DNA of 39,574 nucleotides from a virus, in the IMG/VR virus record IMGVR_UViG_3300027852_001410, positions 1 through 39,574 of that record. One strand, given 5' to 3'. A program made the translations under genes and the position numbers. Shown piece after piece: positions 5,546 to 28,475 of the stretch (the first letter of the stretch is position 1; each line of letters opens with the position of its first letter). The notes beneath the pieces are model-generated. The model saw only the letters and a list, made by a program, of their open reading frames with translations. It made no database searches and was not told the DNA's origin.

Positions 5546-5905
5546 ATGAAGAAAGTATTGACTGTAATAATAATATTGAGTTTTTTTGGTTGTGCAAAAA
5601 AAGCACAAAATCTAAAAGCTACATATGTTCCGCCATCTTATTATTCTAAACATACTTGCAATGAGCTAGAAGATGAAATGTTCAATGTAAATAGGCAGAT
5701 GCATATAGTCGCTGCTAGTGTTGATCAACATTCAAAAAGAGACAAAATAAAAACAGGTGTTGGCGCTGTGCTTTTTTGGCCTACCTTATTTTTTATTAAG
5801 GGTAAAACTTCTGAATCTGCTGAATATTCTAGATTGCTTGGAGAGAAAGATGCGATTGAATATAACCAGGTTAAAAAAGAATGTAGTGTGAGAAGTGCCA
5901 CATAA
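5546..5905 (+). CDS. Small outer-membrane-type lipoprotein (moron candidate)
   Basis: 119 residues. A signal peptide (KKVLTVIIILSFFGC) ends in a lipobox Cys at residue 16. The mature part reads YVPPSYYSKHTCNELEDEM, later TGVGAVLFWPTLFFIKG (a hydrophobic helix), then a charged helix. I recognise this PPSYY..TC..L.DE ... VLFWP.LFF pattern from small lipoproteins in proteobacteria and their prophages; the role is unknown, and cell-surface modification of the lysogen is a guess. GGGAG lies 8 nt before the ATG. It has its own upstream region and is followed by about 180 nt without a gene. Confidence 0.85.
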   Translation: MKKVLTVIIILSFFGCAKKAQNLKATYVPPSYYSKHTCNELEDEMFNVNRQMHIVAASVDQHSKRDKIKTGVGAVLFWPTLFFIKGKTSESAEYSRLLGEKDAIEYNQVKKECSVRSAT

Positions 5906-6107
5906 TATCAAAATTAAACAAACAAAAATAATACTCTAATCCAGTACATTTATTATAGTAATTGCTTGTAGGAGGTTATTATAAGGTGCGATAATTAGTA
6001 AAAGCGGTTAGAATTTGCGCAATTGTAGTACATTATGTTAATATATAGTTAATTTAATAATTTAAAGCTTCAGGGATGATTTCTTGGGGTTTTTTTGTAA
6101 AAAAAAT

Positions 6108-6629
6108 ATGAGTAATCTTAACCCTGAAAAAATAGCACAAGACGTACTTAGCTTGTACAAAGTAAAGGGTTTTCCTGTGTTCCCAGAACAAATAGCAAGA
6201 AAGATGGGGTTGGGAGTTCACAATCATGGTTTCCCTCCTGATATATCTGGAGCCTTGCAAAAAGAGAAGGGTAAGGACGCTATCATATTTATTAATTCAA
6301 ATGATAGTGATCAACGCAAAAGGTTTTCTATCGCTCATGAGCTTGGGCATTACATGTCAAGAGTGCTAACAGATGGCAATGACCAAGAATATGAGTTTAT
6401 TGACTTTAGAAATAATGTTTCAAAAAGTGGGTTAGATAGAGAGGAGGTATTTGCCAATAAATTTGCTGCTGAATTGTTGATGCCAGAAAAAGAAGTGAAA
6501 AGGCTGCATAAAAAAGGCCATAATTCAATTTCAATGGCTGACTACTTTAGTGTTTCACCAGATGCAATGTCTTACAGGCTTGACAATTTAAAACTAAAAA
6601 GAATTAGCTATGCTAGTTTGTTTGGTTAA
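6108..6629 (+). CDS. ImmA/IrrE-family metallopeptidase
   Basis: 173 residues from ATG 6108; a TTG at 6084 (8 residues longer) has a better AGGGA site 7 nt upstream, so that start is possible. The zinc motif HELGH is at 77-81, and REEVFANKFAAELLMP at about 111-126 supplies the usual third ligand region. Family members cleave phage or ICE repressors (ImmA of ICEBs1) or act in stress response and some toxin-antitoxin pairs. It is followed 3 nt later by a membrane protein gene, so the two may work as a pair. Targeting of the phage repressor is inference. Confidence 0.88.
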   Translation: MSNLNPEKIAQDVLSLYKVKGFPVFPEQIARKMGLGVHNHGFPPDISGALQKEKGKDAIIFINSNDSDQRKRFSIAHELGHYMSRVLTDGNDQEYEFIDFRNNVSKSGLDREEVFANKFAAELLMPEKEVKRLHKKGHNSISMADYFSVSPDAMSYRLDNLKLKRISYASLFG

Positions 6630-6632
6630 TTT

Positions 6633-6977
6633 ATGTCAAAAACAATAGAAATAAAATTATCTGATTTATTGAAAAATAACGAGACAGAGAACAATACAGA
6701 AACAGATTACATTGGTAAGATTGCCAAACAAAAAGCTGTTCAGGACCACAATCAAACTCAAGGACTGAGCTTTCATCTTTATACTGGTGCAAGGATTTTG
6801 ATATGGATATTAATAGTATTAACAGCGGTATTTATTTTAGTGCTTGCATGGCATATGATTGCAACTGAAGATTGGCAATGGATGAGTAAAGAACAAATCG
6901 ATAGGGTTAGAGATATAATGATGGCGGCGCTTGCATCTGGTTTTGTGACTGCATATTCTAAGAAAATATTAAAATAA
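6633..6977 (+). CDS. Two-TM membrane protein, partner of ImmA/IrrE
   Basis: 114 residues. The polar N-terminal about 45 residues begin SKTIEIKLSDLLKN and are followed by one strong transmembrane helix (ILIWILIVLTAVFILVLAW) and a weaker one (IMMAALASGFVTAYSKKI). No family recognised. Start 3 nt after the peptidase gene and a strong terminator right after it define a two-gene transcription unit. Confidence 0.75.
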   Translation: MSKTIEIKLSDLLKNNETENNTETDYIGKIAKQKAVQDHNQTQGLSFHLYTGARILIWILIVLTAVFILVLAWHMIATEDWQWMSKEQIDRVRDIMMAALASGFVTAYSKKILK

Positions 6978-8068: not shown

Positions 8069-8200
8069 GTGAACAATCAACCCACTAAAGATAAACTAAT
8101 TGACCTAATGACTAAAGTAATTGTAAATAGAGTAGAAATGAACCAGAAAGAAACTAAGAGGAAATTAGAACCAGAGAGGCGATCTTTTCCTTGTCAATGA
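8069..8200 (+). CDS. Possible small repressor-controlled ORF (43 aa)
   Basis: GTG start with AGGA 6 nt upstream, following the promoter/operator at 7989-8036. Product: NNQPTKDKLIDLMTKVIVNR, then EMNQKETKRKLEPERRS, a basic helical peptide. The last 47 nt overlap the 3' end of the repressor gene on the opposite strand. It may be a real small regulator, a truncated remnant of an HTH protein, or just the start of an antisense transcript. Confidence 0.35.
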   Translation: MNNQPTKDKLIDLMTKVIVNRVEMNQKETKRKLEPERRSFPCQ

Positions 8201-8606
8201 AGTTTTTCAATTCATAATCATCAATTGAAAGCTTGGTTATCTCTCTAATTTTTTCTTGAGAGATAGTTAAATCTTGTTCGCGAATAATTTCTGTAATTGT
8301 AAATATAATCTCCCATGCATAATCTGGGATATCAGCATGAGTTGTGTTGTCAAGATCGCCAGAACTAAGCCCTAAGTGAGATTCAATTTCGCGAGACTTT
8401 TTGTCTGAAAGATTTCTAACTCCGTGTATTATTAATTGCCAATAATCAGGCTTAACACCTAAAAATTCTGCGAACATTTTTTCAGTCACGTCATCTTTTG
8501 AAACTTGTCCATAAAACTTTAAAGACATCGGCACCAATCTAAAGATGTTTTTCAGTCTTTTGATTGTCGTGTCTTTTTTAACTTTTGATGAGACGGTTGT
8601 TTTCAT
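8154..8606 (-). CDS. Phage repressor (HTH, no peptidase domain)
   Basis: 150 residues. An XRE-like helix-turn-helix occupies about 41-80 (TEKMFAEFLGVKPDYWQLII, then NLSDKKSREIESHLGLSSG). The rest is helical and shows no S24/LexA Ser-Lys cleavage residues, so RecA-stimulated self-cleavage is not supported. Divergent orientation to the Cro-like gene with palindromic operators between them is the classic immunity layout. Its promoter (TTGTAA-16-TATTAT) overlaps an operator-like repeat, implying autoregulation. No gene symbol is assigned because the family is not identical to lambda cI. Confidence 0.82.
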   Translation of the reverse strand: MKTTVSSKVKKDTTIKRLKNIFRLVPMSLKFYGQVSKDDVTEKMFAEFLGVKPDYWQLIIHGVRNLSDKKSREIESHLGLSSGDLDNTTHADIPDYAWEIIFTITEIIREQDLTISQEKIREITKLSIDDYELKNFIDKEKIASLVLISS

Positions 8607-8714: not shown

Positions 8715-8957
8715 ATGAAAAATCAACTAGATTACAAAGACTACATCAAGCTTTTGACGGCTGAACAAAAAAGAACATTGTGTCAGTATATTAATATAAG
8801 TGTAGCTTATTTATACCATTATAAGAACGGTTTCAGAAATCCAACTATAAAGAGAATTTCTAAAATAATAGAATGGGCAAACAAAAATACTCCTGACAAT
8901 ATCCCTACATTTGACGAATTAATCTCATTAAAGAACACTGACAACGGGGCGGTTTGA
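8715..8957 (+). CDS. Cro-like HTH regulator
   Basis: 80 residues. LLTAEQKRTLCQYINISVAY, then YKNGFRNPTIKRISKIIEWA, form a small XRE/YdaS-like helix-turn-helix unit at about 13-55. It is the first gene of the rightward early operon and divergent from the repressor, the position of Cro. The gene would be read from an almost leaderless mRNA. Its stop overlaps the next start as TGATG. Confidence 0.8.
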   Translation: MKNQLDYKDYIKLLTAEQKRTLCQYINISVAYLYHYKNGFRNPTIKRISKIIEWANKNTPDNIPTFDELISLKNTDNGAV

Positions 8958-9262
8958 TGTTAAAGCTTCTTAAGAAAATATATTTTCAGCTCAAATCATT
9001 ACTAAATTTCAGAAGTAATTTAAATAAGGGTAATTTACCGCCTAATTTATGTGTTCCTTTTGCTTTAATTGTTTTTCTAATTCTTCAATTCTTTTTGTTG
9101 TTTTACTACGCCAGTTCACAATATAGATTGTGTACTGAATCCAAGAAATCGCCATGTATAAACAAGAAGCTAAAAAATAATACAACACATAGCCAAGTTC
9201 AAAGTAAACATCTGTTACTTGTAGAGAAAATAATACAATCATCGGGAGCAAATAAAAGATGA
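8957..9262 (+). CDS. Plus-strand coupled ORF (bridging ORF 1)
   Basis: Starts at ATG 8957, sharing one base with the Cro-like stop (TGATG), after GGGGCGG. The first about 30 residues (MLKLLKKIYFQLKSLLNFRS) are basic and helical; after about residue 30 the frame runs antisense to the membrane gene 9042-9374. It contains one hydrophobic stretch (FALIVFLILQFFLLFYY). It ends with an ATGA overlap to the next ORF. Either a real small protein or a reading frame kept open for ribosome passage. Confidence 0.45.
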   Translation: MLKLLKKIYFQLKSLLNFRSNLNKGNLPPNLCVPFALIVFLILQFFLLFYYASSQYRLCTESKKSPCINKKLKNNTTHSQVQSKHLLLVEKIIQSSGANKR

Positions 9263-9374
9263 ATTTAATTTGTTCTTTATTTTTATTAATTGAGTCTGAA
9301 TACACTTTAAAAAACAAAGTAACAAGTAGTGTTATAAAAGCTGTGACTAGAATTAATATAATTTCTTTAGTCAT
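9042..9374 (-). CDS. Embedded minus-strand membrane protein A
   Basis: 110 residues. Helix 1 is MTKEIILILVTAFITLLVTL. After a charged loop (NKNKEQIKF) come two more hydrophobic segments (LPMIVLFSLQVTDVYFELG, YYFLASCLYMAISWIQY), and a C-terminal coiled coil (KRIEELEKQLKQKEH). AGGA precedes the ATG. The same plan is seen in the next minus-strand gene, 9541-9894, so the two are probably paralogues. Orientation against the early operon suggests lysogen expression, as for superinfection-exclusion proteins; that role is a guess. Confidence 0.65.
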   Translation of the reverse strand: MTKEIILILVTAFITLLVTLFFKVYSDSINKNKEQIKFIFYLLPMIVLFSLQVTDVYFELGYVLYYFLASCLYMAISWIQYTIYIVNWRSKTTKRIEELEKQLKQKEHIN

Positions 9375-9450
9375 AAATTTTCCTATTTTATTTGTTAAAA
9401 AATTCGATTATATCATAGCAACACCAACCCAAGAAATGCGGGTGGTTTGA
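9259..9450 (+). CDS. Plus-strand coupled ORF (bridging ORF 2)
   Basis: ATG overlaps the previous stop by ATGA; GGGAG lies 10 nt upstream. The 63-residue product (MNLICSLFLLIESEYTLKN ...) has no recognisable family and is antisense to the 5' part of membrane gene A for much of its length. It ends TGATG with the next ORF. Supported mainly by its place in the coupled chain. Confidence 0.4.
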   Translation: MNLICSLFLLIESEYTLKNKVTSSVIKAVTRINIISLVINFPILFVKKFDYIIATPTQEMRVV

Positions 9451-9770
9451 TGTCAATCTATTGGATTAATAAAACAATTAACTGTGTTAAGTCTCTCTTT
9501 AAAAATAAGCAAAGGGAACATGCCAAGGATTTTGGCAAGGTTATTTTTCGTTTAGAGTTACGGTCTTTAGTTGCTCTACTTGGGCTTCTAGTTTGTTCAA
9601 GCGTTGCTTTATATCGCGTTCATTCAGTAGATCGACCTTTAAGCTCTTGTAACGTAAAAACAGTAAATAAGGAAAAAATATTACAACCAAATAAATCCAG
9701 TACTCTGAGCCAAAGTACATGTCAACAAAAGACAATGTTAATAGTAAAGCAAGAGGAGTCCACGAAATGA
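9450..9770 (+). CDS. Plus-strand coupled ORF (bridging ORF 3)
   Basis: Begins GGTTTGATGT, almost the same junction as at 8951-8960, one repeat unit (about 490 bp) further on. The first about 30 residues (MSIYWINKTINCVKSLFKN) resemble the start of bridging ORF 1 in length, charge and KSL motif. The rest runs antisense to membrane gene B. It ends with an ATGA overlap. Confidence 0.45.
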   Translation: MSIYWINKTINCVKSLFKNKQREHAKDFGKVIFRLELRSLVALLGLLVCSSVALYRVHSVDRPLSSCNVKTVNKEKILQPNKSSTLSQSTCQQKTMLIVKQEESTK

Positions 9771-9894
9771 TTTCCTTAATTTTGAGCCTGTTTTTTTCAA
9801 AATCATCTTTGTATAACCACCTTAATGATTTAAATAATCCAGCTACAGCTACAAGGATGAATGGAGTGAATATTAATAATTGTGTTTCAGTCAT
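9541..9894 (-). CDS. Embedded minus-strand membrane protein B
   Basis: 117 residues with the same plan as protein A: N-terminal helix (LLIFTPFILVAVAGLFK), charged loop (EKNRLKIKEI), two further hydrophobic segments (TPLALLLTLSFVDMYFGSEY, IYLVVIFFPYLLFL) and a C-terminal coiled coil (DIKQRLNKLEAQVEQLK). The 'L.LSFVDMYFGSEY' and 'LFSLQVTDVYFELGY' segments of B and A align. Probably a diverged tandem duplicate; possible superinfection-exclusion protein. Confidence 0.65.
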   Translation of the reverse strand: MTETQLLIFTPFILVAVAGLFKSLRWLYKDDFEKNRLKIKEIISWTPLALLLTLSFVDMYFGSEYWIYLVVIFFPYLLFLRYKSLKVDLLNERDIKQRLNKLEAQVEQLKTVTLNEK

Positions 9895-9916
9895 GAGGTG
9901 TACCTATGTTGTTTAG
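9767..9916 (+). CDS. Plus-strand coupled ORF (bridging ORF 4)
   Basis: ATG overlaps the previous stop by ATGA and has AGGAG 8 nt upstream, a strong translation signal for a 49-residue ORF. The product (MISLILSLFFSKSSLYNHL ...) is antisense to the 5' half of membrane gene B. No family recognised. Its stop overlaps the next ORF by 11 nt. Confidence 0.4.
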   Translation: MISLILSLFFSKSSLYNHLNDLNNPATATRMNGVNINNCVSVMRCTYVV

Positions 9917-10520
9917 TCAGAAATCCAATTATAGCATAAGCCTTATGACTGTTTATAGGTGCCTACAGTCGAGCGATAAACAAGACTGTAGGGCTTTTCA
10001 AGGTCAGTATTTGTATGCTAACAACAGTGAGGCTATAGCTAGTATTACCTTTGCTATTGCTTTTATGATGTTGGCGACATTTATGACCTTTATTTCGATG
10101 CGTTTTTTCATAATAGTTCCTATGAATAGCGTCTCGGACGTCCAAGAGTTTATATTCTTGGATTTCTATACCGCCTTAATTTTAGGCGGTTGCATAGCAG
10201 TATTGACTAGTATTACTGCTATACGTCAGGAGGTGTGGTACTTGGGTTTCACGCATCGCGCTAGAATTGCCCAGTACTTCCACCCTTTAGCTGGCATGCT
10301 ACTGCCTACAAGCGGGATTAGCGATCCCGCACCTTATTTTAACATAAAACCCAAAAGAGCGTCTTGTCCCCTTATCAGTTGTTCTTTTGCCAGTGCATTA
10401 AATTCACTCACACTCTCTTTTATGCACTGGGTTTTATTTACTTGGTTGAACTGTGGGAAGGACAATCAAGCGGCTTGCCAGTGCCGTAATACTGGCTCCC
10501 TAATTGGAGTAGAAATATGA
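9906..10520 (+). CDS. Long coupled ORF over a hairpin-dense region
   Basis: 204 residues from ATG 9906 (GAGGTG upstream). The first half contains two likely transmembrane helices (SITFAIAFMMLATFMTFIS and FYTALILGGCIAVLTSI). The second half (FTHRARIAQYFHPLAGMLL ..., six Cys) looks less like a folded protein. Seven perfect stem-loops lie inside the frame, so part of its role may be at the RNA level. Its stop overlaps the next ATG (ATGA), which has GGAG upstream. No family recognised. Confidence 0.45.
   Translation: MLFSQKSNYSISLMTVYRCLQSSDKQDCRAFQGQYLYANNSEAIASITFAIAFMMLATFMTFISMRFFIIVPMNSVSDVQEFIFLDFYTALILGGCIAVLTSITAIRQEVWYLGFTHRARIAQYFHPLAGMLLPTSGISDPAPYFNIKPKRASCPLISCSFASALNSLTLSFMHWVLFTWLNCGKDNQAACQCRNTGSLIGVEI
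9962..9992. repeat. 9-bp stem-loop followed by GCTTTT
   Basis: CCTACAGTC / GACTGTAGG with a 13-nt loop, then GCTTTTC. Terminator-like on the plus strand. Confidence 0.5.
10141..10222. repeat. Three consecutive perfect stem-loops
   Basis: TCCAAGA/TCTTGGA (10141-10162), ACCGCCT/AGGCGGT (10170-10190) and ATAGCAGTA/TACTGCTAT (10194-10222) follow each other with 3-7 nt between them. Confidence 0.6.
10242..10437 (+). ncRNA. Candidate RNA switch with mutually exclusive pairings
   Basis: Segment A TTGGGTTT (10242-10249) and segment C TGGGTTTTAT (10428-10437) are both complementary to segment B ATAAAACCCAA (10344-10354). Only one pairing can form at a time. Between A and B lies GCGGGAT/ATCCCGC (10312-10330). 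The stem CCAGTGCAT/ATGCACTGG (10390-10430) competes with B-C pairing. The A-B-C logic resembles the seqA/CI RNA/seqC arrangement of phage P4 immunity; homology is not claimed. Confidence 0.45.
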
Positions 10521-10699
10521 TTGATTATACGGTTGGTATTTTGTTTATTGTGCAGTCTATTTTATTGGCGATTTATTTCTTTGAAAATAGAAATTTGAGG
10601 AACGAGAACCAAGTGGCATGTGATTTTTTAGATAAGGAATATAGAACAAATAAAAACTTAAGAAAGATTATTAATGATCAAACCGGTAAAAAATTATGA
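10517..10699 (+). CDS. Small single-TM protein with coiled tail
   Basis: 60 residues. One hydrophobic helix (YTVGILFIVQSILLAIYFF) is followed by a charged helical tail (ENRNLRNENQ, LRKIINDQTGKKL). GGAG is 8 nt upstream of the ATG, and both ends are ATGA overlaps. No family recognised. Confidence 0.65.
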   Translation: MIDYTVGILFIVQSILLAIYFFENRNLRNENQVACDFLDKEYRTNKNLRKIINDQTGKKL

Positions 10700-10869
10700 T
10701 TAAAGATAAAAGCAGTCAATTTGAGGGCCAGTTAGAATTTATAAAATCAGAGGTTAATGATAGGTTGTGCTCGCTTTTGGAAATTCTCATTAGAGATTTA
10801 ATTAATCGTAATAGATCCTTGGAATCAGAAGTTCAACTAATGCAAGAGTTCATGGGGAAGAATAAATGA
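10696..10869 (+). CDS. Small helical protein (57 aa)
   Basis: MIKDKSSQFEGQLEFIKSEV, then LEILIRDLINRNRSLESEVQ. Almost wholly helical with heptad-like spacing. It starts and ends with ATGA overlaps between the membrane peptide and the exonuclease gene. No family recognised. Confidence 0.6.
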   Translation: MIKDKSSQFEGQLEFIKSEVNDRLCSLLEILIRDLINRNRSLESEVQLMQEFMGKNK

Positions 10870-11378
10870 ATAATATTATGTTGGATATCGAAACTATGGG
10901 TACTGGTAGCAATGCGGCTATTGTGTCTATTGGTGCTGTTAGGTTTGATGATAATGGTGTTACTGATAAGTTTGATAAGGTTGTGAATTTAACCAGTTGT
11001 TTATTTGCTGGGTTTGATATTAACCAGGAGACTATTGATTGGTGGCGCAAGCAAAGTACCAAGGCACAAAAAACCCTGTTAAGACGTTCTGTTTCGATAT
11101 CAAGGGTATTAACTGAGTTTAGCGATTGGATTGGTGAAGATGCGGTTGTCTGGGGCAATGGTTCGGACTTTGATAATGTAATTTTATCGAATGCTTATAA
11201 GGTTATGGAGAAAGAACTCCCTTGGAAGTTTTACAAAAATCGCTGTTATAGATCTGTTAAGGCTTTGTATCCTGATATTGAGATTAAGCGTGTTGGCACA
11301 CACCACAATGCTGTAGATGATGCCGAATCTCAAGCACTGCATTTGATTGCCATGATTGGTGGGAGTGGGTTGTTGTGA
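10866..11378 (+). CDS. 3'-5' exonuclease, Rv2179c-like (DEDD fold)
   Basis: 170 residues. RNase H-like exonuclease with LDIET (D7, E9) as motif I, GNGSDFDN at about 97-104 as motif II, and HHNAVDDAESQA near 147-158 as motif III (H..D). The WW in TIDWWRKQS is typical of the Rv2179c/DUF5051 branch found in many lambdoid phages. It probably trims 3' ends of DNA or RNA during early phage growth. ATGA with the upstream gene and GTGA with the downstream ORF. Confidence 0.9.
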   Translation: MNNIMLDIETMGTGSNAAIVSIGAVRFDDNGVTDKFDKVVNLTSCLFAGFDINQETIDWWRKQSTKAQKTLLRRSVSISRVLTEFSDWIGEDAVVWGNGSDFDNVILSNAYKVMEKELPWKFYKNRCYRSVKALYPDIEIKRVGTHHNAVDDAESQALHLIAMIGGSGLL

Positions 11379-11707
11379 GTTTGTTAAATCGAATCTTTTA
11401 TATCTGTATATGGAGTAATTTTACCATCATTCACAATCATATTTTCAGTGTTGCAAGCTTTGCAAAAATACCGACAGTTTTTAATTGTAACCGTATTAGG
11501 ATTTATTCCTCTGTTAAGAGAATCTATCAAATCACTTTCAAGAAATTGATGATCCTTAAGTTGTGCGAGAAGGACTTGGCATTTTTTACAATGAGGTTGT
11601 TTGTTTCTATCCCAAAGAATACCAAATTTAGCCGTCAATTTTGTGTCAAGAATGCGTTTGATTTCATGATGCCTGATCCTAAGGAGAATAGACAATGCTG
11701 TCACTAG
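11375..11707 (+). CDS. Plus-strand coupled ORF (bridging ORF 5)
   Basis: GTG start overlapping the exonuclease stop as GTGA, with GGGAGTGGG upstream. The frame runs for 110 codons almost entirely antisense to the minus-strand gene 11384-11881. No family recognised. The stop overlaps the next ORF, whose ATG has a strong AAGGAG, by 13 nt. Role as a ribosome path over the antisense gene is inferred from the chain. Confidence 0.4.
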   Translation: MSLLNRIFYICIWSNFTIIHNHIFSVASFAKIPTVFNCNRIRIYSSVKRIYQITFKKLMILKLCEKDLAFFTMRLFVSIPKNTKFSRQFCVKNAFDFMMPDPKENRQCCH

Positions 11708-11881
11708 GATTAACAGCAATACTGATAATTGCGCCCATCTATCCAGCTTTATCGATGGCAATATGGATGGGACAAAAGAAAGAGGTAAATATTTATACAC
11801 TATTAGCAGTATGCCTGCTGTCAGTGTCAACCATAGTTTTGTTGAGTGGTTTCGTAAACCTTTTATTATTGCATCAAGCAC
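11384..11881 (-). CDS. Embedded minus-strand membrane protein with two CxxC pairs
   Basis: 165 residues from GTG 11881 (AGAGG 9 nt upstream). Two transmembrane helices (LWLTLTAGILLIVYKYLPL and LSVLLLILVTALSILLRI) are followed by a cytoplasmic part with GILWDRNKQPHCKKCQ and FCKACNTEN, a four-Cys zinc site. This TM plus zinc-ribbon plan is frequent in small phage proteins set against the early operon; superinfection exclusion is a guess. Confidence 0.7.
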   Translation of the reverse strand: MLDAIIKGLRNHSTKLWLTLTAGILLIVYKYLPLSFVPSILPSIKLDRWAQLSVLLLILVTALSILLRIRHHEIKRILDTKLTAKFGILWDRNKQPHCKKCQVLLAQLKDHQFLESDLIDSLNRGINPNTVTIKNCRYFCKACNTENMIVNDGKITPYTDIKDSI

Positions 11882-11946
11882 AGTATGAACCTCTGAAATA
11901 TTGTGAGCAGTATATCACAAGCCAAAAAGATCGAGGAGAACTATGA
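11695..11946 (+). CDS. Small membrane protein (83 aa), antisense overlap
   Basis: ATG 11695 has AAGGAG 8 nt upstream, one of the best ribosome binding sites here. The product has two hydrophobic segments (LGLTAILIIAPIYPALSMAI and YTLLAVCLLSVSTIVLL) and a polar tail (YCEQYITSQKDRGEL) that reads like real protein. It overlaps 187 nt of the minus-strand gene 11384-11881. It ends ATGA with the ORF entering the C4-like RNA. Confidence 0.55.
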   Translation: MLSLGLTAILIIAPIYPALSMAIWMGQKKEVNIYTLLAVCLLSVSTIVLLSGFVNLLLLHQAQYEPLKYCEQYITSQKDRGEL

Positions 11947-11989
11947 ATTTGACAACGAACACGCAAAAGAGTAATATGGGAATCCTAAC

Positions 11990-12150
11990 AACGATCAGCG
12001 GTAATCCGCACCCGACAGCTCTATGCGGTTTTTTTTCGCCAAAATTATATGGCGGGTCTGGAGAGCTTAATAAAATACCTTCGGGGAATAAGCTCCGCCG
12101 TCTGATCGCGGTTAGTGAAGCCCGCCACCATCTAAAAAGTGGCGAAAAAA
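11990..12150 (+). ncRNA. C4-like antisense RNA upstream of antirepressor genes
   Basis: A dense set of pairings: CGCCA/TGGCG (12037-12054), AGCTTA/TAAGCT (12064-12094), GGCGGG/CCCGCC (12051-12056 with 12121-12126) and CGCCAC/GTGGCG (12123-12144, followed by A6). CTGATCG (12102-12108) is complementary both to CGATCAG at 11992-11998 and to CGATCAG at 12158-12164, next to the AGGAG of the following gene. C4 RNAs of P1/P7-type phages block translation of downstream icd/ant genes in this way. An ORF from ATG 11943 is open right through and in frame with the next gene. Confidence 0.6.
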
Positions 12151-12173
12151 CTAAATACGATCAGGAGACTACA

Positions 12174-12524
12174 ATGTCTATAAAACCAATCAAGGGACAA
12201 ATCCGTCCAAACCTTTCTATCGAGCAAAATATAGATTTGCTTAACTCTATTGAATTTATCAATGGCAAAAACTACTGGCAAGTAACGCCTACTGGTGATT
12301 ACGCTGTTGATTGCAATACTGGCAATAACTTTGCTAACACCGCCTTAAACTACATGTATCAAGCCAATTTCACCCCATTGTTGGGATGGATTACCAACTC
12401 AATGATTGCTAATGGTGAATTTACGGGTATTGAGGTTGGGTTTATGGCAAAGATATCTAGCCACTCTACACAAAACTTTCGCGTTGAAACATTGATCCAA
12501 AAAATGCAGGAGCAATCGGCATGA
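12174..12524 (+). CDS. Conserved small phage protein between C4-like RNA and antirepressor
   Basis: 116 residues from ATG 12174, which has AGGAG 6 nt upstream; an in-frame start at 11943 would add 77 residues encoded by the C4-like RNA region. The core (FANTALNYMYQANFTPLLGW, then GEFTGIEVGFMAKI) belongs to a small family I have seen beside antirepressors in many prophages, without a known function. The ribosome binding site lies inside the antisense target, so its translation is probably RNA-controlled. Confidence 0.75.
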   Translation: MSIKPIKGQIRPNLSIEQNIDLLNSIEFINGKNYWQVTPTGDYAVDCNTGNNFANTALNYMYQANFTPLLGWITNSMIANGEFTGIEVGFMAKISSHSTQNFRVETLIQKMQEQSA

Positions 12525-13210
12525 GTAATTTAATCCCTTTCGATTTTAACAATCACCAAGTTCGCGTAATTAATAGTGATCCGAACAATCCTTTGTTTGT
12601 CGCCATTGATATTGCTAAGGCACTTGGATATAAGAAACCTCGTAATGCAATCCAGCGTTTTTGTAAGAAACAAAGCACCGCCCCAAAGCAGGGCGGTGGA
12701 TTTATGGTGTTAATTAATGAGACTGATATGTATAGGTTGATATTCGGTTCAAAATTAGAAGCTGCTCAAAAATTCCAAGACTGGGTATTTAATGAGGTCC
12801 TGCCATCTATTCGCAAAACAGGTCAATACGTTGCACCTGAGCCTACTGGTTTAACTAAATTACAAAAGGGGCACATCCATCAGACTGTCATGAGTATTGC
12901 TAGTAACGGCTTTTTCTCGCATTCTTCTTTATTTGGTCAGCTTAAAAGACATTTTGGCGTATCTAAATACGATGAAATTAATGCGACTGATTATGGTCGT
13001 GCTTGTCAATTGTTGGGTGTTTCCCCGAGAAAATCGCTATTAGTCGCTAAAAAAGAGCCAATTGAGGCCTTGCCAGTGCTTTCAATCAATGAGAGGAAGT
13101 TAAGGAGTGATATCCATGATTTAAGCCAGCAGTTGAATGTTGTGAATAATTTATTTAATAAGGTCGTTAAGGAAGTCTTTGTTTCACCAAATAAAAGGGC
13201 GGTGCATTGA
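12521..13210 (+). CDS. BRO-N domain antirepressor
   Basis: 229 residues. The BRO-N domain covers about 1-100: FDFNNHQVRVI, DIAKALGYKKPRNAIQRFC, VLINETDMYRLIF, then FQDWVFNEVLPSIRKTGQY, the family's hallmark order. The C-terminal part is a separate, partly helical domain. In P1/P22-type phages such Ant proteins bind and inactivate repressors. ATGA overlap with the preceding gene and AGGAG 8 nt upstream suggest it is co-regulated by the C4-like RNA. Confidence 0.88.
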   Translation: MSNLIPFDFNNHQVRVINSDPNNPLFVAIDIAKALGYKKPRNAIQRFCKKQSTAPKQGGGFMVLINETDMYRLIFGSKLEAAQKFQDWVFNEVLPSIRKTGQYVAPEPTGLTKLQKGHIHQTVMSIASNGFFSHSSLFGQLKRHFGVSKYDEINATDYGRACQLLGVSPRKSLLVAKKEPIEALPVLSINERKLRSDIHDLSQQLNVVNNLFNKVVKEVFVSPNKRAVH

Positions 13211-13211
13211 T

Positions 13212-14237
13212 ATGAGTAAAAGAAACCCTGAATTGGCTTTAAATGATGTAGCTGATGATTTGTTTATTTTAAACAAGATAACCATCGATAAGCTGTTTGC
13301 ATTGGATAAACCAACTGAGCCATTGGCTTTGTATATGTTTTACTACAAAACGGCTAAATGGCAAAAAACAAACCGCATTAAGGCCAATGATGTTTATGTT
13401 AGAAAGTGCTTAAAATGGGGTGCTGCTAAGGTGACTTCTACTAAGAAAAAACTCAAAGAAATGGGCTTGATTAAGGTTGTTCAGTCAAGAAAGAATAACC
13501 AAGTTGCTAAATGGTTTATTGAGATTTCTTATATTGTTTCTTCGGAAAAGAGCAAGAACACTCATATGAGTGTTGTAGACAATGATAATCCTGAACAAGT
13601 GGCGAATTTAAAGGGTTCGGGCAAGAACACTCAAACGAGTGTTGTAGGTAGCAAGAACACTCCTGAGCAAGAACACTCGAAAGCAAGAACACTCAAACGA
13701 GAAACAAATGCTTTAAAACAATCAATTAAAGTGCTTGAAAACAAAACTAAAGAGGTTTTTGGTTTTTGGATAAAGATTTTTGAAAAGCATGAAGCTGTTT
13801 TGGATGATTCAAGAATTGAGATAATTGGTAGGGCATTAAAAAACTATTCTACCGCCGATGTGAAAAATGCCATTGTTGGTTGTAGTTTGTCTGATTTCCA
13901 TATGGGTGTAAGTCCTGCCAGCAAAAATGGTATTAAACATAATTCATTATCTATCATCTTGCGAGATTCTGAACAGATAGAGAAATTTATCGCTTTATCG
14001 GGTTCTAAAAGCCATAAAGCCAAAGTATTACCAAGTTTGGATGAGGTTACTGATCAATTGTGCAATGTTTATCTCCAATCACAAGAGAGAAAATACACAC
14101 ATCCAATCACCGGTGATATTGATTATAAGATTCAGGAATATTTGAATGATGGCAATAGTTTTAAAAAAGTAGAAATATTTAAAGAGTTTATTGAAAGCAA
14201 ATACCAAGAACTTAGCAAAGAAAAGGTGGCAGCATGA
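13212..14237 (+). CDS. Replication initiator-like protein (winged helix, iterons in gene)
   Basis: 341 residues from ATG 13212. The N-terminal 110 residues look like a winged-helix domain (ALYMFYYKTAKWQKTNRIK, VTSTKKKLKEMGLIKVV). A Ser/Asn/Thr-rich linker (about 118-175) is the part encoded by the five GCAAGAACACTC repeats. A helical C-terminal domain follows. This order (DNA-binding domain, iterons in the middle of the gene, partner-binding domain) is that of lambda O-type initiators. No helicase or loader gene is recognised next to it, so a host loader may be recruited. Confidence 0.75.
   Translation: MSKRNPELALNDVADDLFILNKITIDKLFALDKPTEPLALYMFYYKTAKWQKTNRIKANDVYVRKCLKWGAAKVTSTKKKLKEMGLIKVVQSRKNNQVAKWFIEISYIVSSEKSKNTHMSVVDNDNPEQVANLKGSGKNTQTSVVGSKNTPEQEHSKARTLKRETNALKQSIKVLENKTKEVFGFWIKIFEKHEAVLDDSRIEIIGRALKNYSTADVKNAIVGCSLSDFHMGVSPASKNGIKHNSLSIILRDSEQIEKFIALSGSKSHKAKVLPSLDEVTDQLCNVYLQSQERKYTHPITGDIDYKIQEYLNDGNSFKKVEIFKEFIESKYQELSKEKVAA
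13552..13694 (+). repeat. Iteron array, probable replication origin
   Basis: Five exact copies of GCAAGAACACTC start at 13552, 13621, 13651, 13667 and 13683; the last three are spaced 16 bp apart. Copies 1 and 2 extend into AACACTC-N4-GAGTGTT palindromes. The array lies inside the initiator gene, as ori does in lambda O. Confidence 0.75.
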
Positions 14238-14518
14238 AAAAGAAACTAATGACCGGTGTTAAACAATGCAGAAACAAGATGTTTAGTGCCAGCATGTCGC
14301 ATAATTCCAGAATCATAAGCCTTGGTGTGTTTAACACTGAAAAGCAAGCTGGACAGGCTTATCTTGATGCTAGAAAAGCATTACCAATTAAATCAAACGC
14401 CAAAAACAAAGAATGCAGTCCAAGAGAATATTTAATACATCGGCTTAAAGACAAAAACTGTCCTTTGCTGATAGAGAACCAACGTACGCCAATATCATTT
14501 GCAAGAAGTGAGTATTAG
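14234..14518 (+). CDS. AP2-like DNA-binding domain protein
   Basis: 94 residues. GVKQCRNKMFSASMSHNSRI, then LGVFNTEKQAGQAYLDARKA, match the three-strand-plus-helix pattern of AP2 domains in phage and homing-endonuclease proteins (G..F.T.E.A..AY). The C-terminal about 35 residues are basic and unassigned; no nuclease motif is present. ATGA overlap with the initiator gene. Confidence 0.75.
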   Translation: MKKKLMTGVKQCRNKMFSASMSHNSRIISLGVFNTEKQAGQAYLDARKALPIKSNAKNKECSPREYLIHRLKDKNCPLLIENQRTPISFARSEY

Positions 14519-14723
14519 GGTGAACCATGGTTGCATCAATGGCGAATTATTCAAACACAATACCCGTGAAAGCGTTATTGAGTATCTTGGCAGTTTGGAT
14601 TTAACACCAGATGAGAAGAACGGGTTTTATGTGTATTGGAAAGGAATTATGAACCGTAAGGCGGTAGCTAAACAATTGGCTAATAACAAACGATTAGAGA
14701 AAGAGAGGAAGTTGAGAAGATGA
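14508..14723 (+). CDS. Small hypothetical protein (about 71 aa)
   Basis: Start uncertain: TTG 14499, GTG 14508 or GTG 14520 are all possible and no site has a clear ribosome binding site. The core (YLGSLDLTPDEKNGFYVYWK, then AVAKQLANNKRLEKERKLRR) is helical and ends very basic. No family recognised. Its stop overlaps the next ATG. Confidence 0.6.
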   Translation: MSIRVNHGCINGELFKHNTRESVIEYLGSLDLTPDEKNGFYVYWKGIMNRKAVAKQLANNKRLEKERKLRR

Positions 14724-23707: not shown

Positions 23708-25399
23708 ATGAAAGATTATGTTGCGGTCGCTTTAAAATATGCTAGAGCTGCACAGAAATCTAAGAAGCATGGTAAATGGTCTAAGCTTGCATGTAAAAGA
23801 TTTTTAGAAGATTACAAAAAAGCAAAGAAAAAAAGTAATAGCTATTACTTTGATGAATATTTAGCAAATGATCCATGTGACTTTGTTGAAAAGATGCCAC
23901 ATGTTGAAGGTGAGTGGGATACTCCAACAATCACACTTCATGCCTCTCAGATATTTTTCATTGTTAACATATTTGGGTTTCGAGATAGTGAAACTCACGC
24001 AAGAAGATTTTCCACGGCACTTTGGGCTAGTGGCAGAAAAAATGGTAAGTCAACATTGGCAGCTCCCCTTGGTATCTATTGCCAAGTTTGCGAAGAAAGC
24101 AATGGGGCACAAGTTGTTAGTGCTGCAACTACAGGTGATCAAGCAAAGATTGTTTGGAATGTTGCAAAGCGGATGGTCGAGAAGGAAATTGACCTACAAG
24201 AATACTATGATATTAAACCATATTCTAGGACTATTGCAGGACTGGCAAACGGCTCAATATTCAAATACATTTCAGCTAAGGCAAGTACTCAAGATGGATT
24301 AAATCCAAGCTGTGCAATTATTGATGAGGTCCATGCTCACCCAAACCACGATTTAATCAATGTTCTTAAGTCTGCAGCCGGTGCAAGGCTCAACCCGTTA
24401 TTTTTATTTGTAACCACTGAAGGTTATTCAAATGAAAATAGCCCTTGGGCTGAGATGCGAAAATTTGCACATCAAATATTACAGGGAATTGTAACTGCCG
24501 ATCATTTCTTTTGTGTGATCTTTGCAGTTGACGAAGAAGACGATGAATATGACCCAAAAGTTTGGATTAAAGCTAATCCAATCATGGAAGTCAATCCCAT
24601 TCTTGCAAAGGAAATTGCTAAAGAAGCGATTGAAGCCAAACAAATGCCAGGCAAGGCTGCTGAATTTAGAGTCAAAAGATTAAATAAACCTAGTGCCAGT
24701 GCTGATTCATTCATTGATCTAACATCTTGGAACAAATGCAACGCATCAAAAACCCTTGATGAATTAGAAGGGGCTACATGTTGGGGAAGTCTTGATTTGG
24801 CTTCTAATCGAGATTTGGTATCTTTTAGAATACTTTGGTACCTAGAAGGCAAATACTATACACATGGTTGGCGTTATTGTCCGAGTGAAGCTATTCATTT
24901 TAAAAATTTAACTGGCACCAGTAAATACCCTGGTTGGGTTGAAGAAGGTTTGTTGTTAGAAACAAAAGGAAAAACAAACAACCATGAAATTATATTAAAA
25001 AATATAGTTGAGCAAGTTAAAAGATTCAAACCATCAAAGCTAGTTGCAGATGACTGGAACACAAGTGAAATTGTTAGAAAGCTTGATGAAAATCATAATA
25101 TAGAAATGCTCCCGTTTATACAGGGCCCGAAATCATATCATCCAGCAATTAAGAAATTTGAAAAATCATATATAGATGGTGAACTTGGCCATTGTGATGA
25201 TCCAATTTTGAAATGGTGCGCGACAAACCTAGTAGTTAAAAGAAATGAAAACGCAAATATGATGCCCGATAAAAAAAGAAGCACGGACAAAATAGATGAC
25301 ATTGTAACACTTATTATGTGCTACGGCGCAAGCCTTGATTTTAAACCCAAAAGAAGCCTCCAAAGCTATCTTGATAACAAAGTATCAATTAATTTATGA
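23708..25399 (+). CDS. terL: Terminase large subunit
   Basis: 563 residues, full length for the HK97/P27-associated family. ATPase: Walker A GRKNGKS (109-115), Walker B CAIIDE (202-207), coupling motif VTTEG. Nuclease: SLDLASNRD, VADDWN and DKIDDIVTL supply the acidic residues. It pumps and cuts the DNA. It begins 3 nt after terS and overlaps the portal gene by ATGA. Confidence 0.95.
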   Translation: MKDYVAVALKYARAAQKSKKHGKWSKLACKRFLEDYKKAKKKSNSYYFDEYLANDPCDFVEKMPHVEGEWDTPTITLHASQIFFIVNIFGFRDSETHARRFSTALWASGRKNGKSTLAAPLGIYCQVCEESNGAQVVSAATTGDQAKIVWNVAKRMVEKEIDLQEYYDIKPYSRTIAGLANGSIFKYISAKASTQDGLNPSCAIIDEVHAHPNHDLINVLKSAAGARLNPLFLFVTTEGYSNENSPWAEMRKFAHQILQGIVTADHFFCVIFAVDEEDDEYDPKVWIKANPIMEVNPILAKEIAKEAIEAKQMPGKAAEFRVKRLNKPSASADSFIDLTSWNKCNASKTLDELEGATCWGSLDLASNRDLVSFRILWYLEGKYYTHGWRYCPSEAIHFKNLTGTSKYPGWVEEGLLLETKGKTNNHEIILKNIVEQVKRFKPSKLVADDWNTSEIVRKLDENHNIEMLPFIQGPKSYHPAIKKFEKSYIDGELGHCDDPILKWCATNLVVKRNENANMMPDKKRSTDKIDDIVTLIMCYGASLDFKPKRSLQSYLDNKVSINL

Positions 25400-26613
25400 A
25401 TATAACAAGTAGATTCATGGGATGGTTTGGCCGCAGAACAAACATTGATCAAGCCAAAGGCGAACAAGAGACTAGCCCAAGAACCAAAACAACAAAACAA
25501 AAAATTGCAGTTAACTTTGATAGCGCAATGCAGTTGTCTTCTTTTTGGGCAGCAGTAAGAATTTGGGCTGAAGTAATTTCCTCATTACCAATATCATTTA
25601 AAAAATTTGAAGATGGCATGTGGGTTGATGACCTAGACAGCTCTTTGGCATTTTTATTTTCTGGAAAAGTTAACCGGTACCAGAACAAAATTGAATTCTT
25701 TGAAACTGTAGTATTGAATTGGGTAGTATTTGGCAATGCTTATTGCATTATTCAAAGAGATGCATCTGGTGAAGTTATAGGTTTAATGCCCATGTCTTCC
25801 TCGCAAGTTGAAGTAAAAGTATTGGACAACGGGGATCTATTATTTTTACATCATGTAAATAACAATATTACCGTATATTCTGAAGAAAACATTTGGCATT
25901 TAAAAATGTTTGGCAATGGCATAACTGGTTTAAACACAATGGGATATGCCAGCAATAGCATATCGATAGGCTTGTCAGCTGAAGAAAGGGTCAGCCAAAC
26001 ATTCAACAATGCAGGGAAACCACCAGGAATATTAACTTTCGATGGTGAGGTTAACGAAAAGCAAAGAAAAATGCTGAAAGAAGAGTTTCGTGAACTTGTG
26101 GAAGGCGACAATTTGATGGTCCTTGAGAAAGGATTTGAATACGATAAGACCGCAATGTCCCCAATTGATTTACAGCTTTTAGAATCTCGTAGATTTTCAA
26201 TTGAAGATAACGGCCGCTTCACTGGTATTCCATCAGTTTTAATTAACGATACAGCAAATTCTACTGTCTGGGGTTCAGGTATATCTGAAGTTATAAGAGG
26301 TTGGTATAAGTTGGGCTTGCGCCCTCGTGTTAGGTCTCTTGAATTATCAATGTTGATTCGACTAATTAAACCATCAAAAAGAAGCAAAACAAAAATATTA
26401 TTTGATTTCGATGATTTGTTACAGCTTGACCGCAAGGATCGTTCCGAGTCTCAAATGAAACAAATTAATTCAGGTGTTATCACACCAAACGAAGCTCGTG
26501 AAGAAGAAGGCCGCAAACCTCATGAATCAGGTAACGAGTTAATGATCAATACAGCAATTCAACCTATTAAAACACTGGTAGCACAAAATGAAGCAGAAAC
26601 TATTACAGATTAA
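25396..26613 (+). CDS. HK97-type portal protein
   Basis: 405 residues. AVRIWAEVISSLPISFKKFE, FGNAYCIIQRDASGEVIGLM, then NNAGKPPGILTFDGEVNEKQ, LVEGDNLMVLEKGFEYDKTA and RFTGIPSVLI are the family hallmarks. It forms the dodecameric vertex through which DNA passes. The C terminus (TPNEAREEEGRKPHESGNEL) is typical. ATGA after terL; the protease gene starts inside its last codons. Confidence 0.95.
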   Translation: MNITSRFMGWFGRRTNIDQAKGEQETSPRTKTTKQKIAVNFDSAMQLSSFWAAVRIWAEVISSLPISFKKFEDGMWVDDLDSSLAFLFSGKVNRYQNKIEFFETVVLNWVVFGNAYCIIQRDASGEVIGLMPMSSSQVEVKVLDNGDLLFLHHVNNNITVYSEENIWHLKMFGNGITGLNTMGYASNSISIGLSAEERVSQTFNNAGKPPGILTFDGEVNEKQRKMLKEEFRELVEGDNLMVLEKGFEYDKTAMSPIDLQLLESRRFSIEDNGRFTGIPSVLINDTANSTVWGSGISEVIRGWYKLGLRPRVRSLELSMLIRLIKPSKRSKTKILFDFDDLLQLDRKDRSESQMKQINSGVITPNEAREEEGRKPHESGNELMINTAIQPIKTLVAQNEAETITD

Positions 26614-27223
26614 AGATTTTAAGTTTAATGACGAAAAAATGACCTTTTCTGGTTATGCGTCAACCTTTGGAAATGTAGATTCCTATGGTGATACCGTTTT
26701 CAAGGGAGCATATAAGGATACATTAGAAAACCGTGAGCGCTCAATTAAAATGAGATGGAATCACTGGGGTGAAGTTATTGGCAAATGGACAAGTATCAAA
26801 GAAGATGAAAAAGGTTTATTTGTAGAAGGTGAGCTTACACCAAATCATTCAAAGGCAAGTGATGTTTATGCAAGTCTGCAACATGGTGCTATCGATGGTT
26901 TAAGTATTGGTTACATGCCAACAAAAGAGGCTCCTAATGAAACGGGCGGCTGGGATTTAAAAGAAATTCATTTGTATGAGATATCAATAGTTGAAGAACC
27001 AGCGGACATCCATGCAACGGTTGACAATGTGAAAAGTCATATCGAAAGCCTTAAAACTATCAAAGAAATTGAAAGCTTCATGCGCGATGCAATGAGGTTA
27101 TCACCTAGTGCGGCAAAAGCTTTAATAAGCCGCATTAAAAACGGTCAGCGCGATGTTGACGTAATTGACTGTAGTGAGTTAATAAAAAACGACCCATTAC
27201 TTAATTTTATAACACGCGGATAA
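26588..27223 (+). CDS. HK97-family prohead protease
   Basis: 211 residues. FSGYASTFGNVDSYGDTVFK at the N terminus, then catalytic His59 (RWNHW) and Ser106 (GLSIGY), with IHLYEISIVEEPA following. It processes the capsid precursor during maturation. 26-nt overlap with the portal gene. Confidence 0.93.
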   Translation: MKQKLLQIKDFKFNDEKMTFSGYASTFGNVDSYGDTVFKGAYKDTLENRERSIKMRWNHWGEVIGKWTSIKEDEKGLFVEGELTPNHSKASDVYASLQHGAIDGLSIGYMPTKEAPNETGGWDLKEIHLYEISIVEEPADIHATVDNVKSHIESLKTIKEIESFMRDAMRLSPSAAKALISRIKNGQRDVDVIDCSELIKNDPLLNFITRG

Positions 27224-27245
27224 CCGCAATAAACAGAGAAATATT

Positions 27246-28475
27246 ATGGAAATTAAAAACGCAGAAGATTTGCTAAAAGCAATCGAAGCAAAAACAAAAG
27301 CAACTTTAAAAAAATATGAAGAAGAAGTTGCTGCAAATGGCGTGGCAACCCAAGCCGTTAAAGACGAATTAGTCAAAATGGAAGCACAACTAGCTAAAGC
27401 TAAAGAAGAAAAAGAAGCTTTATTCATTGAGTGGAAAGAATGGCAACAAAAAAACACTGGAAATCCAACGGGTGGCTCTAAAGTCAAAACAATGGCTCAA
27501 GAGTTAAAAGAAAATTCCGAAGATTTGAAGTCAATTGCAAAGGGCTTGTCATCAACTGAAGTCTTAATCAAAGCTGATACTGTACGTGCATCAGTTTCAG
27601 GTGATGAAAATGCACTACAGTTACCAAGCGTTGGTCAGTTAGCCCATGCGAAACTAACGGCATACGATATTTTCACAAAGATTCCAGTATCGGACTCTAA
27701 CACGGGTGGAACAATCAGATATTATGATTGGGATGACGCGACTATTGTTAGATCAGCGGCTGCAATTGCCGAAGGCGCTGTATTTCCTGAATCAACAGCT
27801 AAATTCATCAAGCGAACTTTAGAAATTGAAAAAGTTGGTGATACCTTGCCTGTATCTGAAGAGTTTTTCGAAGATGAAGCAATGTTTGCAGCTGAGTTGG
27901 GAATGTTCTTAGATACCAATGTCAAGATTAAACGCAATTCTCAAATTGTTAATGGCGATGGCGTAACACCAAATCTTAAAGGTTTAGTGACAACGGTTTC
28001 AGCATACACGGCAACAGCATCAGGTATTTCAGATGCTAATATTTATGATTTACATGTAAAGGTCTCTGAAGATATTACTGCAACAGGTGGCGCTAAATAC
28101 GCACCTAACTTTAGCTTCATGAATATCGTTGATATTAACAGAATGAAATTGAAAAAAGATGCTAATGAAAATTACATCATACCACCTTTTGTTTCAAGAG
28201 ATGGAGGCGAAGTAGCTGGCATGGTTGTATTAGAAGAAAATACAATAACAGCCAATACAATGGTAATTGGCGATAGTCGATATGGTCGAATCTATGAAAA
28301 AGAAGGTGTTACCCTATCTAGAGGCATGGTAAATGCTCAATTTGTTGAAGATATGGAAACTTTAAAAGTTCGTACAAGATTAGCGTTCCTCATTAGAGGT
28401 GCTGACGTTGGTGGCTTTAGAAAAGTTACTGATATTGATGCAGCATTGGTCCTTTTAGCAACCGTACCTGCTTAA
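27246..28475 (+). CDS. Major capsid protein (HK97 fold)
   Basis: 409 residues. The N-terminal about 100 residues are a charged coiled coil (delta/scaffold domain, AKAKEEKEALFIEWKEWQQK) likely removed by the protease. The mature part has E-loop and P-domain patterns (GGTIRYYDWDDATI, VGDTLPVSEEFFEDE, VNGDGVTPNLKGLV, RTRLAFLIRGADVGGF). A strong terminator follows 21 nt after the stop. Confidence 0.95.
   Translation: MEIKNAEDLLKAIEAKTKATLKKYEEEVAANGVATQAVKDELVKMEAQLAKAKEEKEALFIEWKEWQQKNTGNPTGGSKVKTMAQELKENSEDLKSIAKGLSSTEVLIKADTVRASVSGDENALQLPSVGQLAHAKLTAYDIFTKIPVSDSNTGGTIRYYDWDDATIVRSAAAIAEGAVFPESTAKFIKRTLEIEKVGDTLPVSEEFFEDEAMFAAELGMFLDTNVKIKRNSQIVNGDGVTPNLKGLVTTVSAYTATASGISDANIYDLHVKVSEDITATGGAKYAPNFSFMNIVDINRMKLKKDANENYIIPPFVSRDGGEVAGMVVLEENTITANTMVIGDSRYGRIYEKEGVTLSRGMVNAQFVEDMETLKVRTRLAFLIRGADVGGFRKVTDIDAALVLLATVPA

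Follow-up and report, generated by a model that had tools for sequence, protein, structure and literature searches.

A 39,574-base virus record from IMG/VR (IMGVR_UViG_3300027852_001410; 35.5% G+C), to which we refer in its entirety as the window, contains an unbroken chain of plus-strand open reading frames (ORFs) that runs from 8957 to 11946, across three genes encoded on the opposite strand (minus gene 1, 9042-9374; minus gene 2, 9541-9894; minus gene 3, 11384-11881) and across a strongly structured stretch. Openness, ribosome sites and junctions are kept between two diverged modules of this chain, and plus-strand amino acids are not detectably kept. The best-supported explanation, to which we attach a little less than even confidence and which is not established, is that the early transcript of a phage is kept translated over its antisense genes. 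More tentatively, the region may be an ambigrammatic operon, in which non-functional bridge ORFs coupled through Shine–Dalgarno (SD) sites run over antisense genes and structured RNA, with translation itself selected and not its product. The feature is real, unusual and of one locus, and it is statistically sound within limits that we give with the numbers.

Results

ORFs beginning with ATG or GTG cover 100% of the plus strand from 8715 to 14723, compared with 25-36% on other non-coding strands. A preliminary description of this DNA had argued that antisense frames in such AT-rich sequence should be broken often. The four main plus-strand frames over the minus genes are expected to contain 4.5, 3.6, 7.8 and 5.3 stop codons, and none contains any (in total, ~22 stops expected and 0 seen in the plus ORFs over the three minus genes). 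These four are bridge ORF 1A (8957-9262; P = 0.0013), which starts on the stop codon of a Cro-like gene and lies over minus gene 1; bridge ORF 2A (9450-9770; P = 0.007 with pooled codons and 0.04 with codons shuffled within the gene), which lies over minus gene 2; bridge ORF 3A (11375-11707), which runs opposite the C-terminal portion of minus gene 3; and bridge ORF 3B (11695-11946; P = 0.0013). Bridge ORFs 1B (9259-9450) and 2B (9767-9916) are coupled through ATGA to the ends of 1A and 2A, respectively.

When each minus-strand protein was held fixed and its codons were redrawn synonymously (2000 trials), a coupled plus-strand chain crossed 9042-9374 in 0-0.4% of the redraws, 9541-9894 in 0.2-3.6% and 11384-11881 in 0-2.2%, with each range reflecting how strictly coupling was defined. 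Shuffling codons within each gene gave joint no-stop probabilities of 0.0006 and 0.015 for minus genes 1 and 2 and 0 of 5000 trials for minus gene 3, and the same antisense frame and length was open in 0.35%, 0.2%, 0.43% and 0.86% of segments drawn from real AT-rich genes (140 viral loci plus this window). The openness is confirmed, and composition does not explain it. Long ORFs are open on both strands beyond chance, as expected of antisense overlapping gene pairs.

Codon usage within minus gene 3 tells the same story at finer scale. Over the C-terminal part of this gene its codons are in register with the plus frame, and TTA, CTA and TCA there read as plus-strand stops; these 108 codons include no TTA, no TCA and a single CTA, which is the stop of the overlying frame itself, whereas the 58 codons of the N-terminal part, which lie under another plus frame, include four TTA, two CTA and two TCA. 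Such a switch inside one gene is not what gene-wide foreign codon usage would give, with the caveat of small numbers. Reverse-stop codons are avoided beyond codon bias in minus gene 3 under ORF 3A, as expected of ambigrammatic sequence of the narnavirus type. Minus genes 1 and 2 have different frame offsets to the plus ORFs and were tested as stop counts.

These probabilities were computed for chosen places and so are not whole-scan probabilities. We consider it improbable that a coincidental shortage of stops opposite three genes came to notice because many windows were read. The region was indeed chosen post hoc, it is a single locus, and the null is imperfect, with GC-rich loci showing 16 crossings against 9.7 expected. 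Chance would nonetheless have to account for two separate islands in the window that both cross (P <0.0005 and ~0-0.02), for the agreement of openness with SD strength, and for codon avoidance that switches within minus gene 3 where the plus frame switches.

SD strength is a line of evidence separate from openness. The preliminary description had noted a GGAG-like site at most of the junctions. Eight starts bridge stretches other than sense genes (8957, 9259, 9450, 9767, 9906, 11375, 11695 and 11943), and all of them have anti-SD duplex energies between -6.6 and -9.1 kcal/mol, whereas -6 is reached by 5.4% of the other ATG or GTG codons in the window and by 4.1% on the antisense strand of late genes. 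The values are -7.2 for 1A, -6.6 for both 1B and 2A, -8.6 for 2B, -6.9 for 3A and -9.1 for 3B (AAGGAG). Most junctions, including that of 1B, offer only one ATG or GTG close to the stop (within -30 to +10), so choice among starts explains little of this strength. The start-on-stop junctions themselves are all present, as TGATG at 8957 and 9450, ATGA at 9259, 9767, 10517, 10696, 10866 and 11943, and GTGA at 11375, with longer overlaps of 11 and 13 nucleotides at 9906 and 11695. Those at 10517, 10696 and 10866 connect ordinary sense genes and are nothing unusual.

The start at 9906 opens a 204-codon plus-strand ORF (9906-10520) that begins at an SD site, ends in ATGA on the next gene and contains no stop where 12.1 were expected. 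The stretch it covers (9906-10516) is rich in hairpins, folds far better than its shuffles (z = -7.4), has a very un-gene-like codon score and gave no match in Rfam. Searches of phages, plasmids and 369 Gammaproteobacteria genomes found nothing that matched this stretch.

We then have to consider whether the minus-strand genes are themselves genuine, as the preliminary description had supposed. For two of them the case is good. Minus gene 1 (110 amino acids) is a predicted helical membrane protein with a C-terminal coiled coil, and minus gene 2 (117 amino acids) is its paralogue (31% identity, E = 3e-7). The motif TGNTATANT, an extended -10 box, lies 27-33 nucleotides upstream of all three minus genes and occurs nine times in the window, counting both strands. 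The individual minus-strand boxes are TGATATAAT at 9407-9415 (32 nucleotides upstream of minus gene 1), TGCTATAAT at 9928-9936 (minus gene 2; matched in two separate scans) and TGATATACT at 11909-11917 (minus gene 3; a sequence match at 27 nucleotides). All nine TGNTATANT sites are on the minus strand, and the remaining six are antisense to mid and late plus-strand genes (15670, 15968, 17116, 21073, 25407 and 29345). As a possible terminator of the moron type there is only a weak bidirectional hairpin, at 9521-9537 past minus gene 2.

The case for minus gene 3 (165 amino acids, predicted N-terminal membrane helices) is less secure. Its promoter-like site, its SD site (-6.5) and its two CxxC pairs support it, and its weak, negative codon score and the choice of plus-strand 11695-11946 in its place by a simple gene caller cast doubt on it. 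The last two points, together with its lack of a homologue, are what might be said for the reading, the least probable of those we weighed, in which the plus ORFs are ordinary early genes and at least one minus ORF, minus gene 3 above all, is spurious. This reading is hard to reconcile with the conservation of minus genes 1 and 2 as paralogues whose second codon positions are best kept, with the placement of an extended -10 box at 27-33 nucleotides from all three genes when the whole window has nine, or with the improbability of minus-strand openness once the plus proteins are fixed (P = 0.011 and 0.0007 for minus genes 1 and 2, and 0/3000 for minus gene 3). None of the minus genes has a convincing family in Pfam, PHROGs, NCBIfam or PADLOC, or a homologue in viral_contigs, phages, plasmids or the 369 Gammaproteobacteria genomes; a lone candidate homologue (E = 9.5e-4) lay in a 488-codon frame and was judged a chance match. 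AlphaFold models with predicted local distance difference test (pLDDT) scores of 54 and 68 were too weak for a fold search, and that of minus gene 3 was of low confidence.

The first two minus genes also permit a comparison within the locus. The modules that contain them, 8957-9449 and 9450-9905, appear to have arisen by tandem duplication. Both retain the junction GGGYGGTTTGATGTYAA as a well-kept plus-strand stretch (copy 1, GGGCGGTTTGATGTTAA, at 8947-8963; copy 2, GGGTGGTTTGATGTCAA, at 9440-9456; 88% identical). In both, the two plus frames stand in the same register to the minus codons, and each module contains an ATGA preceded by an SD site, the two positions differing by one codon. The minus proteins align with a score of 105 against a shuffle maximum of 55, and between their genes codon position 2 is best kept (.44/.63/.45), which marks out the minus strand as the one under constraint. 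By this codon-position pattern the minus-strand protein of the pair appears to be under purifying selection; for the plus strand, no conservation beyond openness was detected, at low power. Plus ORF A has no similarity between modules (score 27 against a shuffle mean of 29), and ORF B is borderline (8/500 shuffles). A raw in-register similarity of the two open plus frames (P = 0.007 and 0.031) was lost once the null was required to be open (P = 0.19 and 0.09). Between the modules, therefore, openness is kept and plus-strand amino acids are not detectably kept, as judged from a single pair at a divergence that gives low power.

The main rival, and a serious one, is the view that both strands code. 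The plus ORFs would then encode small early proteins and would either have been overprinted on antisense genes expressed in lysogeny or be overlapped by such genes. The openness and SD statistics fit that view equally well, phage Fc02 is a direct precedent for it (PMC9936078), and ORF 11695-11946 has the best SD site of the chain, was chosen by the gene caller and shows a marginal excess of hydropathy (P 0.06-0.10, conditioned on openness); this ORF may be a gene for a small membrane protein in its own right. Elsewhere, openness accounts for the hydropathy of the plus proteins. We nonetheless regard coding on both strands as somewhat unlikely, in that ORF A similarity is nil between modules whose minus proteins align, openness alone explains the plus-strand similarity, and neither 9906-10520 nor 11695-11946 has a homologue in phages.

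At its 3′ end the chain passes over a structured RNA. The ORF that starts at 11943 (11943-12524, plus strand) has an N-terminal extension (11943-12173; SD -8.9; 3.9 stops expected and 0 seen, P = 0.02) over an sRNA-Xcc1-like RNA (RF02221) at 12051-12134 on the plus strand, which is full length and scores 52.7 bits against a gathering score of 53 (E = 1.1e-7). Similarity of the ORF to Rhodobacter phage proteins is confined to C-terminal residues 112-172, which makes 12174 the probable start of the true coding sequence (12174-12524, plus strand; SD -7.4), with the RNA just upstream of it in the early operon. We rejected the ORF over the RNA as a conserved bridge: 30 other loci contain 31 sites for this RNA, and 18 of these lack any frame that is fully open across it, so this part of the chain is not conserved along with sRNA-Xcc1. 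Integron cassettes are known to carry sRNA-Xcc1 (PMC12444791).

A home-made gene caller applied to 140 loci yielded 92 usable antisense islands, 39 of them in AT-rich loci, and the only AT-rich island crossed was that of this window (0.05 expected). Because the islands need not fall within single transcripts, this survey bounds generality only loosely.

The record as a whole is best explained as a temperate phage with a rightward early operon that carries three opposite-strand accessory genes. A probable repressor-like regulator (8154-8606, minus strand), assigned from its position and weak PHROG transcriptional-regulator matches (E 0.001-0.002), diverges from a Cro-like helix-turn-helix gene (8715-8957, plus strand; PF01381 HTH_3, E = 8.8e-5, narrowly below the curated cut-off), and we therefore took the rightward early operon to run from 8715 on, with the Cro-like gene at its head. 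Its sense genes include two small early genes with positive codon scores (10517-10699 and 10696-10869, plus strand) and a gene for an Rv2179c-like 3′-5′ exoribonuclease (10866-11378, plus strand; PF16473, E = 3.2e-47). Outside the operon, 6084-6977 encodes a Peptidase_M78/ImmA-like protein (PF06114, E = 1e-20; PADLOC capP, 2.5e-27) and is followed by a gene for a small membrane protein with a weak SLATT-type match, possibly forming an accessory or defence pair; a minus-strand gene at 7242-7955 matches DUF6502 (E = 3e-8). Within 23708-28475 the terminase is closest to those of Pseudomonas phages (49%) and the capsid to those of Tenacibaculum and Flavobacterium phages (~50%). Searches with the repressor, terminase and exonuclease as anchors found no close sequenced relative of the phage (best match ~50%).

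Discussion

Accessory genes often lie against phage operons, and survival of the sense transcript over an untranslated stretch is usually credited to antitermination. In the explanation that we favor, the plus strand over the three antisense accessory genes and the structured stretch would have been maintained free of stops and with coupled ribosome sites, such that ribosomes could follow RNA polymerase along the entire early transcript. The most likely benefit would be that a translated transcript escapes termination or degradation in places that ribosomes would otherwise leave bare, and we propose that distal early genes would consequently still be expressed. Translation of the plus ORFs, a single transcript for the operon and protection from termination as the benefit are all inferred. 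Plus-strand terminator-like hairpins at 10312-10330 and at 9521-9537 fall inside bridge ORFs.

The preliminary description had suggested, as a possibility, that the bridges guard against Rho-dependent polarity, and had offered coding on both strands as the alternative. The bridging part of that proposal is supported, with starts, SD sites and openness kept between modules and no conservation of plus-strand amino acids beyond what openness implies, but Rho as the termination factor is only assumed, and the plus strand is not C-rich. Rho is reported to suppress pyrimidine-rich antisense transcripts in some bacteria (PMC13323073). No rut-like C-rich plus strand was found over the minus genes, where C/G is 0.93-1.05 and YC density is ordinary, and this is one of several results that count against a selected, translated bridge. 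The others are that plus-strand codon scores over the minus genes are mostly negative, that none of the other 38 AT-rich antisense islands in the viral loci is bridged, that the leftward strand across 5546-6977 of the same genome shows no bridging, and that a homologous locus was not found in viral_contigs, phages, plasmids or the 369 Gammaproteobacteria genomes, which limits the evolutionary comparison to one low-power paralogue pair.

Selection of bridge ORFs for translation alone would give many small early ORFs that are orphan or unannotated a reason to exist other than their protein, and the cost of carrying an antisense gene would become measurable. If both strands code instead, the operon would contain several clustered pairs of genes that overlap in antisense, which would be a rare case.

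Phage morons, or lysogenic conversion genes, are small accessory genes that lie against the operon direction and have their own promoter. The minus genes here likewise oppose the operon, and all three have a promoter-like site, an extended -10 box recognized by sequence match only. They differ in the kept plus frame opposite them; to our knowledge, the usual description of a moron includes no kept translatable frame on the other strand.

Long ORFs antisense to annotated genes are also expressed in E. coli EDL933 (PMC9927249); those are single genes with protein phenotypes, whereas the ORFs described here are coupled chains in an operon. In phage Fc02, the gene following ner shares its DNA with an exclusion gene on the opposite strand, and the products of gene 10 and olg1 both exclude phages (PMC9936078). 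The arrangement is alike in that, within the lysis-lysogeny region, a lytic-operon gene beside cro or ner overlaps a gene on the other strand, which is expressed in the lysogen in Fc02 and would be so here. Fc02 differs in being a B3-like transposable phage for which exclusion activity was demonstrated for the two products, and neither a chain of coupled ORFs nor a repeated module has been described for it.

Openness that does not depend on a protein product has its nearest analogue in the ambigrammatic narnaviruses, in which the reverse frame stays open through avoidance of UUA, CUA and UCA, and analysis suggests that openness and translation outweigh the product (PMC7010960, PMC8316113, PMC8155312). 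Those are eukaryotic RNA viruses with one long, near full-length reverse ORF per segment, whereas here a DNA phage operon carries several short SD-coupled ORFs in different frames, so that the resemblance is one of how the two systems may work and not of type.

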